NCBI GenBank assembly: GCA_030690245.1
Contig: JAUYGW010000029.1
Coordinates: 1-5,839 of the forward strand
DNA length: 5,839 nt
Source of the DNA: Gallionella sp.
GTDB taxonomy: Bacteria > Pseudomonadota > Gammaproteobacteria > Burkholderiales > Gallionellaceae
Direction: 5' to 3'
Shown: positions 1,743 to 5,839 of the stretch, in pieces
Position numbering within the stretch: the first letter of the stretch is position 1
Layout: the number at the start of each line of letters is the position of its first letter
The notes under the pieces: generated by a model
What the model saw: only the letters and a program-made list of their open reading frames with translations
Databases searched by the model: none
Told to the model about the DNA's origin: nothing
Program-made: the position numbers and the translations under genes

Positions 1743-3203
1743 ATGCGCATCATTCAGAAAGCACTAACCTTTGACGACGTTCTGCTCGTTCCTGCCTATT
1801 CCAATGTATTGCCGCGCGATGCCACCCTGCGCACCCAGCTTACCCGCAATATCAGCCTGAACATCCCGGTGCTTTCCGCCGCGATGGACACCGTCACGGA
1901 ATCGCGCCTCGCGATTGCCCTGGCGCAAGAGGGCGGTATAGGGATCATGCATAAAAACATGCCGGCTCATGCGCAGGCCGCCCAGGTCGCCAGGGTCAAG
2001 CGCTTTGAAAGCGGCGTGGTCAAGGATCCCATCACCATCACGCCGGACATGACGGTGCGCGATGTGCTGGTTTTGACGCGCCAGCACAAGATTTCCGGTT
2101 TGCCGGTGGTGCAGGGCAAGCAGCTGGTCGGCATCGTGACCAACCGCGACCTGCGCTTCGAGAGCAACCTGGACCAGCCGATCCGGAACATCATGACGCC
2201 GCGCGAACGGCTGATTACCGTCAAGGAAAATACCAGCCTGGATGAGGCGCGCAGCCTGATGCACAAGCATCGCATCGAGCGCGTATTAGTGGTCAATGAT
2301 GCATTCGAACTGTGCGGGCTGATGACGGTAAAGGACATCCTTAAATCCAGCGAACATCCGCTGGCTTGCAAGGACAGCCTCGGCCGCCTGCGTGCCGGCG
2401 CGGCGGTCGGGGTGGGCGAGGGGACGGAAGAGCGCGTCGCGTTGCTGGCCGAGGCCGGGGTGGACGTGATCGTGGTGGACACCGCGCACGGCCATTCGCA
2501 AGGCGTGCTGGATCGCGTCAAATGGGTGAAAGATAATTTCCCGCAGGTCGAGGTGATCGGCGGCAACATCGCCACCGGCGGGGCGGCGCAGGCGCTGCTG
2601 GATCACGGCGCGGACGGCGTGAAAGTCGGCATCGGCCCCGGTTCAATCTGCACCACGCGCATCGTCGCGGGTGTGGGTGTACCGCAGATCGCCGCAATCC
2701 AGAATGTCGCAAAGGTCTTGCAAGGCACCGGCGTTCCGCTGATCGCCGACGGCGGCATCCGTTATTCCGGCGACATCGCCAAGGCGATCGCAGCGGGCGC
2801 ACATGCCGTGATGCTCGGCGGATTGTTCGCCGGAACCGAGGAAGCGCCGGGCGAGATCGAGCTATTTCAGGGGCGTTCCTACAAATCCTATCGCGGCATG
2901 GGCAGCCTCGGCGCGATGCAGCAGGGCTCCAGCGACCGCTACTTTCAGGAAGGCGAAAGCAATCAGGACAAGCTGGTGCCGGAAGGCGTCGAGGGCCGCG
3001 TGGCTTACAAAGGCAGCGTGCTGGCGGTGATCCATCAACTGATGGGCGGGCTGCGCGCCAGCATGGGTTATCTCGGTTGCGCCGACATTGCCACGATGCA
3101 CACCAAGGCCGAATTTGTCGAAATTACCTCTTCCGGTATCCGTGAGTCGCATGTGCATGACGTGCAGATCACCAAGGAAGCGCCGAATTACCACATTGAC
3201 TAG
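1743..3203 (+). CDS. guaB: IMP dehydrogenase
   Basis: IMP dehydrogenase oxidises IMP to XMP with NAD+, the committed step of guanine nucleotide synthesis, as a cytoplasmic tetramer or octamer. From this start the protein has 486 residues, against 488 in E. coli. [14 protein letters not shown] opens the TIM barrel (7-20). A CBS-domain pair interrupts it at about 92-203 (VRDVLVLT... and [19 protein letters not shown]...). Asp247 lies in the NAD-binding [10 protein letters not shown] segment. The catalytic loop [10 protein letters not shown] holds the nucleophile Cys303, and the flap SSDRYFQ carries Arg399-Tyr400. All key residues are present. The start at 1743 is chosen over an in-frame ATG at 1707 because CGGGAG (1729-1734) lies eight bases upstream of 1743, homologues begin MRI..ALTFDD, and 1707 lies upstream of the promoter -10. 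guaA follows after 68 bp, so the two probably form an operon. Confidence 0.97.
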
Positions 3204-3206
3204 GAG
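3202..3206 (+). promoter_or_regulatory. Shine-Dalgarno AGGAG overlapping the guaB stop, probably serving guaA
   Basis: The guaB stop codon TAG is immediately followed by GAG, giving AGGAG, the only strong anti-16S match in the guaB-guaA gap apart from purine heptamers within the hairpin arm. It lies 65 bases before the guaA ATG in linear distance. After subtraction of the inverted repeat 3208-3265 the remaining spacer is C3207 plus ATAGCT (3266-3271), seven bases. Use of this site for guaA is inference. Confidence 0.45.
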
Positions 3207-3207
3207 C

Positions 3208-3265
3208 GAGGATTGAGGATTGTGGATTGAGTGAAACCACTCTCGATCCTCGATCCTCGATCCTC
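3208..3265 (+). repeat. Heptamer-built inverted repeat (long hairpin) between guaB and guaA
   Basis: The left arm (3208-3233) consists of GAGGATT, GAGGATT, GTGGATT and GAGTG. The right arm (3238-3265) reads as CTCGATC-type heptamers whose reverse complement is GAGGATC three times and then GAGAGTG. The loop is AAAC (3234-3237). In the plus-strand RNA the arms form about 26 pairs with one U-U mismatch (3223/3250) and a two-base bulge (3243-3244). Every heptamer contributes one G-U wobble. No T tract follows, so it is not an intrinsic terminator. GAGGATT-type heptamer arrays recur in many bacterial intergenic regions as I recall; their function is not established. Confidence 0.9.
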
Positions 3266-3271
3266 ATAGCT

Positions 3272-4852
3272 ATGCATAAGAAAATCCTCATCCTCGATTT
3301 CGGTTCACAGTACACCCAACTGATCGCGCGCCGCGTGCGTGAATCAAACGTCTATTGCGAACTGCATCCCTGGGACATGACGGCAGAAGACATCCGCGCC
3401 TTCAATCCGGCAGGCATCATCCTTTCAGGCGGGCCGAATTCCGTTTATGAGGAAGAGACGCCCAAGGCACCGCAAATCGTGTTCGATCTGGGCGTGCCGG
3501 TGCTGGGCATCTGCTACGGCATGCAGACCATGGCGGCGCAACTGGGCGGCGCGGTGGAAAACGGGCTGGTGCGCGAATTCGGCTACGCGGAAATCCGCGC
3601 TCAGGGGCATTCTGCGTTGCTGCGCGACATTCAGGATCGCGCCAATAGCGAAGGCCACGGCCTGATCGACGTGTGGATGAGCCACGGCGACAAGGTGACG
3701 GCGCTGCCGCCGGGTTTCTCGGTGATCGCCAGCAACCCCGCCACGCCCATCGCCGGCATGGCGGACGAAACACGGCGTTTTTACGCGCTGCAATTCCATC
3801 CCGAAGTGACCCATACCCGGCAAGGCAAGGCGATGCTCGGCCGTTTTGTGCACGACATCTGCGGCTGCGCGCAGGACTGGAACATGCCGGACTATATCGG
3901 CGAAGCGGTGGAAAAGATTCGCGCCCACGTCGGCAGCGACGAAGTGATCCTGGGACTGTCCGGCGGGGTGGATTCCTCGGTGGCGGCGGCGCTGGTTCAT
4001 CGCGCCATCGGCGACCAGTTGACCTGCGTGTTCGTGGACAACGGCCTGTTGCGCCTGAACGAAGCGGCGCAGGTGATGGAGACCTTTGCCAAGCATTTGC
4101 ATATGAAGGTGATCCACGTCGATGCCAGCGCGGAGTTTTTGCAGCATCTGACCGGTGTGACCGACCCGGAGAAGAAGCGCAAAATCATCGGGCGCGAGTT
4201 TGTCGAAGTGTTCCAGCGCGAAGCCAAGAAACTGCCGCAGGCCAAGTGGCTGGCGCAGGGCACCATCTACCCGGACGTGATCGAATCCGCCGGCGCGAAG
4301 ACCAAGAAGGCGCATGCCATCAAATCGCACCACAACGTCGGCGGCCTGCCGGAAAGTTTGCACCTCAAACTGCTGGAGCCGTTGCGCGAACTGTTCAAGG
4401 ACGAAGTGCGCGAGCTGGGCGTCGCATTGGGTCTGGCGCACGGCATGGTATACCGCCACCCGTTCCCCGGCCCCGGCCTGGGCGTGCGCATCCTCGGCGA
4501 AGTGAAACGCGAGTATGCCGAGTTGCTGCGCCGCGCCGATGCGATTTTTATCGAAGAACTGCACGCGACCAGGGATGAAGAAGGCAAGTCCTGGTACGAA
4601 AAAACCTCGCAAGCCTTCACCGTATTCCTGCCGGTCAAGAGCGTCGGCGTGATGGGCGATGGACGCACCTACGAATGGGTGGTGGCCTTGCGTGCGGTGC
4701 AGACGCAGGACTTCATGACCGCGCACTGGGCGGAACTGCCTTACTCGTTGCTGGGCAAGGTCTCCAACCGCATCATCAACGAAGTGCGCGGTATCAACCG
4801 CGTGGTGTACGATATCTCCGGCAAGCCGCCCGCCACGATTGAGTGGGAATGA
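3272..4852 (+). CDS. guaA: GMP synthase (glutamine-hydrolysing)
   Basis: GMP synthase aminates XMP to GMP using glutamine and ATP, the step after GuaB. The 526-residue protein has an N-terminal class I glutamine amidotransferase domain with [10 protein letters not shown] (51-60), nucleophile Cys81 in GICYGMQ, and His176/Glu178 in the FHPEVTHT segment. Next comes an ATP-pyrophosphatase domain with the PP-loop LSGGVDSS (229-236), followed by the C-terminal dimerisation/XMP-binding domain with [13 protein letters not shown] and the conserved ending [11 protein letters not shown]. The ATG at 3272 matches the usual start (E. coli is 525 residues) but is preceded by CCTCATAGCT, with no adjacent Shine-Dalgarno. 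An in-frame TTG at 3227, inside the inverted repeat, would add 15 unconserved residues; GAGG (3215-3218) lies eight bases before it. I keep 3272. The upstream hairpin may govern translation, and the gene's 3' end is probably the attachment site of the downstream element. Confidence 0.96.
4822..4852 (+). other. Probable attachment (attL core) region at the guaA 3' end
   Basis: The last codons of guaA, encoding KPPATIEWE, are strongly conserved. The 3' end of guaA is a recognised integration hotspot for tyrosine-recombinase islands. Here an integrase gene of the right type and orientation begins 298 bp downstream. The exact crossover cannot be seen without the distal att copy, so the boundaries are approximate and the call is inference from gene order. 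Confidence 0.4.
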
Positions 4853-5150: not shown

Positions 5151-5839
5151 ATGCTGACAGATACAAAATTACGGAATCTCAAGCCTGAAGCCAAGGCGTA
5201 CAAAGTCAGTGACCGTGATGGTCTATATGTCACCGTCTTGACTACAGGTACGGTATCGTTCCGCTATAACTACAGCATCAACGGACGGCAAGAGACGCTG
5301 GTGATCGGGCGTTATGGTGCTGGGGGCCTGACACTGAAGGAAGCCAGAGAGAAGCTTTCATTGGCGAAAAAGGAGCTTGTTGCCGGCAAGTCGCCATCCA
5401 GAACCAAGGCGAGAGAAAAGCAAAAGTCCAAGGATGCAGATTCCTTTGGTGAGTGGGCGGAACTATGGTTGAAGAATCACCAGATGGCCGATTCAACCCG
5501 AGACATGCGGCGATCAGTCTATGAGCGCGATCTCAAGGAGCCGTTTGGCAAGCTCAAGATGGGTGAAATATCCCATGAGGATTTGCGTGCTTTGTGTGAC
5601 AAGATCGTAGCCAGAGGCGCACCGGCCACGGCGGTCCATGCCAGAGAGGTGTTGCAGTTGGTATATCGCTATGCGATGGAGAAAGGGCATAAGCATGACA
5701 ATCCGGCCGACTTGGTGCGGCCAACGTCTATCGCAAGATTTCAACCCAAGGATCGGTCACTATCGCCAGAAGAGATCGGGGTGATGTATCAGTATCTGGA
5801 GTACGTTTCTACCGCACCTACGATCAGGCTTGCGGTAAA
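5151..5839 (+). CDS. Tyrosine recombinase / phage-type integrase (P4-like, DUF4102 family), 3' end missing
   Basis: An integrase that would insert and excise the element by site-specific recombination. The 229 visible codons begin at ATG 5151, preceded by GGGGGAAG (5142-5149). Residues 1-80 match the arm-DNA-binding domain (DUF4102): LTDTKLRNLKP, then VSDRDGLYVTVLTTGTVSFRYNY and the LVIGRYGAGGLTLKEAREK segment. A basic linker follows (82-95). The SAM-like core-binding domain runs from about 98 to 190 (SFGEWAELWL..., ending YRYAMEKGHKHDNPADLV). The catalytic domain is just starting (LSPEEIGVMYQYLEY, 204-218). The catalytic Arg, His-x-x-Arg and Tyr residues lie beyond the window, so activity cannot be judged. 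No frameshift or stop is seen. Such integrases commonly lie beside their own attachment site, here the guaA 3' end. Confidence 0.9.
   Translation, partial: MLTDTKLRNLKPEAKAYKVSDRDGLYVTVLTTGTVSFRYNYSINGRQETLVIGRYGAGGLTLKEAREKLSLAKKELVAGKSPSRTKAREKQKSKDADSFGEWAELWLKNHQMADSTRDMRRSVYERDLKEPFGKLKMGEISHEDLRALCDKIVARGAPATAVHAREVLQLVYRYAMEKGHKHDNPADLVRPTSIARFQPKDRSLSPEEIGVMYQYLEYVSTAPTIRLAV

Follow-up and report, generated by a model that had tools for sequence, protein, structure and literature searches.

A heptamer hairpin filling the guaB-guaA gap of a Gallionella genome is probably an ORF-less relative of elements carrying intervening-sequence protein genes

Small dispersed intergenic palindromes of bacteria include the REP/RAYT elements and the MITEs, in which a non-autonomous copy is accompanied by a coding relative. 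Intervening sequences without an open reading frame (ORF) occur in rRNA, for example in Salmonella. In phage T4 gene 38, a hairpin places a distant Shine-Dalgarno (SD) sequence close to the start. For intergenic heptamer repeats, we know of no accepted cause.

The intervening sequence in the 23S rRNA of Coxiella has terminal inverted repeats, forms a long stem and carries an S23p ORF preceded by GACAGAT heptamers, and cutting of 23S rRNA intervening sequences by RNase III has been shown (PMC4990558). In the passages cited here, the same paper describes S23p-type proteins as being without known function and the origin of intervening sequences as unclear. The GGGAATC repeats of Xanthomonas are 7-nt tandem units arranged in about 70 convergent inverted pairs per genome; they are intergenic, with a stop shortly before them and a start behind them, and G-quadruplexes were proposed for them (PMC4692102). 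The terms S23, intervening and four-helix have no occurrence in the available text of that paper. Dispersed and mostly intergenic 7-nt arrays were also described as the heptanucleotide elements of Geobacter metallireducens (PMC2700814) and as TAACTGA repeats (PMC4679880). Among the titles and abstracts that searches of the open-licence PMC literature brought up, none joined the genes of intervening-sequence proteins (IVP) to dispersed heptamer hairpins.

The hairpin between guaB and guaA

The window (the whole stretch of DNA analysed, 5,839 nucleotides) belongs to a genome assembled to 82.5% completeness in 357 contigs (2.34 Mb). The closest labelled relatives of its guaA were MAGs of Gallionellales, Gallionellaceae and Sideroxydans, which points to a likely relative of Gallionella. 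On the forward strand, guaB (IMP dehydrogenase, 1743-3203; PF00478, 1.3e-162) is followed by guaA (GMP synthase, 3272-4852; PF00117, 2.9e-43 and PF00958, 1.2e-42). A repeat element exactly fills the interval from the guaB stop (TAG, 3201-3203) to the guaA start (ATG, 3272), in line with the first-pass annotation, and the first base of its heptamer array is the last G of the TAG. The G-rich arm (3203-3231) consists of GGAGCGA (3203-3209), GGATTGA (3210-3216), GGATTGT (3217-3223), GGATTGA (3224-3230) and a final G. The 10-nt loop TGAAACCACT (3232-3241), by eye a shortened version of a longer inter-arm core in other copies, leads to the C-rich arm (3242-3271), made up of a C, three TCGATCC units and a degenerate TCATAGCT that ends at the guaA start. 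Both pairing arms (3208-3231 and 3242-3265) consist of 7-nt units in tandem. As RNA, 23 of their 24 positions pair (20 Watson-Crick and three G-U, with one U-U mismatch); as DNA they are complementary at only 20 of 24, and a repeat finder with a 9-base seed did not list them. The earlier description of a near-perfect inverted repeat therefore suits the RNA, the match being weaker in the DNA.

The hairpin at this gap is real. RNA folding gave -42 kcal/mol for 3190-3290 (z -5.7) and -40.8 kcal/mol for 3201-3274 (z -8.0), and none of 200 shuffles was as good in either case. Pairing of 3205-3207 with 3269-3271, predicted in one of the folds, would partly close the supposed SD, which is open in the centroid. 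Neither a sigma-70-like promoter nor an intrinsic-terminator pattern was detected within 3050-3400, and a gathering-threshold Rfam search over the window returned 0 matches. About 300 bases past the guaA stop lies a tyrosine integrase fragment (5151-5839; PF13356, 6e-18 and PF22022, 5.4e-14), which is cut by the window end and is likely the edge of an integrated element.

A search of the own genome with 3190-3300 returned 29 matches, self included and several overlapping. In the window and 17 own-genome stretches, which were picked for having matches and whose ORF calls are rough, we counted 22 heptamer loci. From the stretches 19 distinct family hairpins were extracted: seven had the strict inter-arm core pattern, and 16 contained GGAGCGA or its complement, a unit that the search pattern permitted among others. 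Like the Xanthomonas repeats, the copies are dispersed between genes as convergent inverted pairs of 7-nt tandem arrays. Sites of the elements included guaBA and, with gene names read from translations, gyrA-serC, thyA-folA and dnaK-dnaJ. In the own-genome gyrA-serC copy, the TGA stop of the upstream gene falls within the first GGATTGA. Across 50 loci of the gyrA-serC site, the gap ranged from -5 to 273 nt; some loci were near-empty, some held the window family and some other heptamers, and 19 of the 50, counted from printed rows, reached 17 of 21 matches at period 7. Stop trinucleotides in the G-rich arms (228 sense and 80 antisense of 2,337) were uncorrected for composition and were not used as evidence.

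Intervening-sequence protein genes and their heptamer flanks

The own genome has a single match to PF05635, the family of the intervening-sequence protein (IVP/S23), at 1202-1516 of contig C270, between apparent thyA and folA (read from translation). The protein has 118 aa; its Pfam match was 3e-38 and its closest solved structure XCC0516 (2gsc, 6.8e-28); the solved structures of PF05635 are 2gsc and 2rld. The GGATTGA/GGATCGA arrays on the flanks of this gene are the window's heptamers.

PF05635 was present in 49 of the 76 genomes of the genus and not found in 27. With an array defined as at least 17 of 21 matches at period 7, 43 of 70 full-length IVP genes with both flanks had a 7-nt array, compared with 1, 1, 1 and 2 for periods 5, 6, 8 and 9. 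The flanking arms were complementary in 42 of the 70, compared with 19 of 350 swapped pairs, and none of 30 P-II control genes of the genus had either 7-nt arrays or complementary arms. In a draw from the phylum, PF05635 was found in 62 of 398 genomes. The best 29 loci (28 usable) had arrays in 18 of 28 and complementary arms in 20 of 28 (7 of 112 when swapped); in 20 more loci of the same class (19 usable), the values were 8 of 19 for arrays and 6 of 19 for arms (0 of 76 when swapped). The array threshold was missed by 27 of the 70 genus genes and 11 of the 19 same-class ones, which speaks against reading the hairpins as elements.

Furthermore, in a family with GGGAATC runs in 47 of 149 genomes, 7-nt arrays occurred at 21 of 30 IVP loci and arrays of other periods at 0; here the cut of the flanks was slightly different, taking in 40 and 60 nt of the ORF, and arrays alone were scored. 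IVP was present in 37 of the 47 genomes with three consecutive GGGAATC and in 27 of the 102 without (Fisher 3e-9, a hand tally uncorrected for kinship). We do not claim a direct tie to the Xanthomonas repeats, since among 14 loci of genomes with such runs, just one had three or more exact GGGAATC units next to IVP. In four loci of one family (L266, L269, L273 and L280), IVP genes lie amid long GTAGGCA arrays, with arms longer than in the window's genus.

IVP identity was correlated with heptamer sharing (Mantel r 0.70, 0 of 5,000 permutations; kinship uncorrected). This overall correlation could be explained by descent alone, so the pairs were split by site. At the same site, pairs with IVP identity below 55% shared heptamers in 0 of 86 cases. 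At different sites, sharing was seen in 14 of 30 pairs with identity of at least 70%, in 8 of 36 at 55-70% and in 9 of 1,839 below 55% (different-site Mantel r 0.28, 0 of 5,000; kinship uncorrected). At the level of sequence comparison, heptamer identity was shown to track the IVP clade and not the genomic site. In the same direction, ORF-less guaBA gaps scored 0.206 for 7-mers shared with IVP flanks from the same genome, versus 0.106 with flanks from other genomes (0 of 20,000 permutations, n=26, kinship uncorrected); the own genome scored 0.53 and ranked 2 of 26. That loci at one site are non-independent and that the co-variation tests ignore phylogeny weighs against the element reading.

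The median dN/dS of IVP was 0.09 over 114 pairs, none of which reached 1, and judged from these ratios IVP is under purifying selection. Where direction was callable, IVP agreed with its upstream neighbour at 38 of 39 loci and with its downstream neighbour at 36 of 37. An orientation argument from G-rich-first arms was rejected, because a G-rich-first inverted repeat looks alike on both strands and arm orientation is uninformative; the direction of the IVP gene was used in its place.

The guaBA site itself was compared across the genus. There were 66 congeneric loci, of which 64 were measurable (L159 and L162, without guaA, were dropped); 46 gaps were short and 18 long (424-766 nt). A PF05635 match lay inside 17 of the 18 long gaps, both ends of which, by eye, are heptamers of other sequence than the window's. 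At least three of the 17 IVP genes at this site were broken by internal stops or split frames. Among the short gaps, only 20 of 46 reached 15 of 21 matches at period 7 and 11 of 46 reached 17 of 21, a point against the element reading. A score of at least 15 was found in 15 of 26 short gaps in genomes with IVP, compared with 5 of 20 in genomes without, kinship being uncorrected. That 19 of 45 short-gap genomes had no PF05635 match counts against the element reading; we assume loss or incomplete assembly. A hairpin scan of L021-L100 and the window gave at least 12 period-7 rows, in the gaps of L027, L035, L060 and L062; it was not relied on, as it needs an exact 9-base seed, missed the window's hairpin and was overwhelmed by the N runs in L088. 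The 766-nt gap of L126 (G059) has heptamer ends and no PF05635 match, and by eye other sequence stands beside an apparent IVP gene end. The L168 gap (G053; 139 nt, -73.3 kcal/mol) is occupied by another long palindrome, one that has no clear heptamers.

Origin of the hairpin and competing explanations

On these comparisons, the hairpin at 3203-3271 probably belongs to a heptamer-bounded element family as a MITE-like copy that lacks the ORF; in full members, a PF05635 gene lies between arms of the same kind. Its movement, its cutting by RNase III and any influence on guaA are inferred as follows. Full elements would encode the IVP/S23 four-helix-bundle protein between their arms, and this protein, or a complex including it, would recognise the heptamer arms and promote spread of the element into operon gaps. 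The ORF-less copy would span from stop codon to start codon and its stem would fold within the guaBA transcript. By analogy with 23S rRNA intervening sequences, the stem may then be cut by RNase III; alternatively, it may just fold away, bringing the guaB stop and the guaA start together. The SD-less guaA probably depends on guaB translation or on the local start region, so an insert would cost little. Pairing of the element ends could hold stop and start near enough for SD-less coupling. Neither a transposase nor a reverse transcriptase was seen in the elements inspected. Against an element stand two points: no movement was seen, and the Xanthomonas heptamers, in the cited parts of the paper, are generally without mobile-element association and sit at conserved places (PMC4692102).

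The first-pass annotation had proposed another role, in which the hairpin brings AGGAG at the guaB stop (3202-3206) next to the guaA start, as in T4 gene 38. Its observation that guaA has no adjacent SD was confirmed (+0.1 kcal/mol for anti-SD pairing, scored over 3 to 22 nt before the start with a threshold of -5 kcal/mol). The spacing would indeed be short once folded, and anti-SD pairing at this genome's guaB stop reaches -8.3 kcal/mol. However, AGGAG does not lie outside the repeat as had been supposed: its AG comes from the stop codon and its GAG from the first unit, GGAGCGA, so that from 3203 on it is repeat sequence, whereas a gene 38-type arrangement keeps its SD outside the hairpin. 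Just 3 of the 64 congeneric gaps had AGGAG or GGAGG no more than 12 nt from where the guaB stop begins. The relatives, whose gaps the annotation had named as the check, gave the same answer. The SD threshold was reached before guaA in 0 of the 64, compared with 29 of 30 P-II and 55 of 71 IVP genes of the genus. Among 80 wider relatives (guaB on the examined stretch in 77, within 1 kb in 71), guaA reached it in 4 of 71 adjacent guaBA pairs, leaving 67 SD-less, and with gaps of up to 40 nt in just 1 of 12. As the SD is missing before guaA both in gaps with a hairpin and in gaps that have none, a displaced or bridged SD fails its own test, and we regard it as very improbable.

The chief competitor of the ORF-less element is a regulon: IVP, as an RNA-binding regulator of housekeeping operons, would act in trans by binding the hairpins, which would be kept by selection and not by selfish spread. 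Purifying selection on IVP, the match of heptamers within a genome and sites in the operons guaBA, gyrA-serC, thyA-folA and dnaK-dnaJ (names from translations) would suit it. It is nevertheless unlikely, given that congeners may have the same site empty or occupied by other heptamers, that 27 of the 76 congeners gave no IVP match, and that several guaBA-site IVP genes are broken. Slippage and template switching at a hairpin might also have built the array in place, unrelated to IVP; 7-nt units are commonly over-represented among bacterial repeats, according to the cited part of PMC4692102, and unit number varies between arrays. The same units with a partly shared core recur at dispersed genome sites, and heptamers follow the IVP clade from site to site, which makes such a local origin decidedly improbable. 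Least credible of all is movement as a REP-like element by a Y1 (RAYT-type) transposase. The own genome has five PF01797 matches, three of which (C55, C281 and C305) share a contig with heptamer hairpins 0.6 to 3 kb away, and complementary flanks were found at 8 of 32 genus Y1 loci, indicating that arms alone are not IVP-specific. But period-7 arrays flank 0 of the 32 usable Y1_Tnp loci (35 given), and RAYT was rejected as the mover since in REP/RAYT systems the same repeat flanks the Y1 transposase gene.

Comparison with known systems

If the hairpin is an ORF-less element of this kind, a wider proposal can be made tentatively, with the odds somewhat against it: that IVP/heptamer elements form a class of mobile RNA-hairpin element, so far unrecognised, that extends across Pseudomonadota and also takes in 23S rRNA intervening sequences and the Xanthomonas heptamers. 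Each IVP clade would recognise its own 7-nt word, the elements would settle from stop to start in operons, where paired arms hide them from translation, and ORF-less copies would be moved in trans. A protein clade travelling with its own 7-nt word would link PF05635 proteins, the origin of intervening sequences and heptamer repeats, and would make all three puzzles testable through IVP binding to the heptamers of its own versus another clade.

The own-genome IVP also matched PF22296, which we take to be bAvd, the accessory protein of diversity-generating retroelements; the match was weak (7.6e-9, 36.5 bits) and below the family cut-off of 40 bits. With REP/RAYT elements and MITEs, the window's hairpin shares the form of a small dispersed intergenic palindrome; the difference is that the 32 usable Y1_Tnp loci of the genus had no heptamer arrays. 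The Geobacter metallireducens elements (PMC2700814) and the TAACTGA repeats (PMC4679880), as described in the cited passages, are mostly direct repeats, unlike the inverted arms of the window, and no link to IVP was found there. The Xanthomonas GGGAATC repeats, so far as the cited text describes them, resemble the window's in their 7-nt units, convergent inverted pairs and intergenic position near a preceding stop and a following start (PMC4692102). The window's units GGATTGA and GGAGCGA have GG and, unlike GGGAATC, no GGG run, which each unit of a G-quadruplex-capable repeat would have. The 23S rRNA intervening sequences, in the parts cited, have in common with the window's element terminal inverted repeats that form a long stem, and with its family a PF05635-type ORF between the arms, with heptamers before the ORF in Coxiella (PMC4990558). 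This S23p/IVP ORF is absent from the window's copy and present at the same site in 17 of the 18 congeneric long gaps. Unlike the 23S rRNA intervening sequences, the element of the window sits in the guaB-guaA operon gap, and its arms are heptamer arrays.
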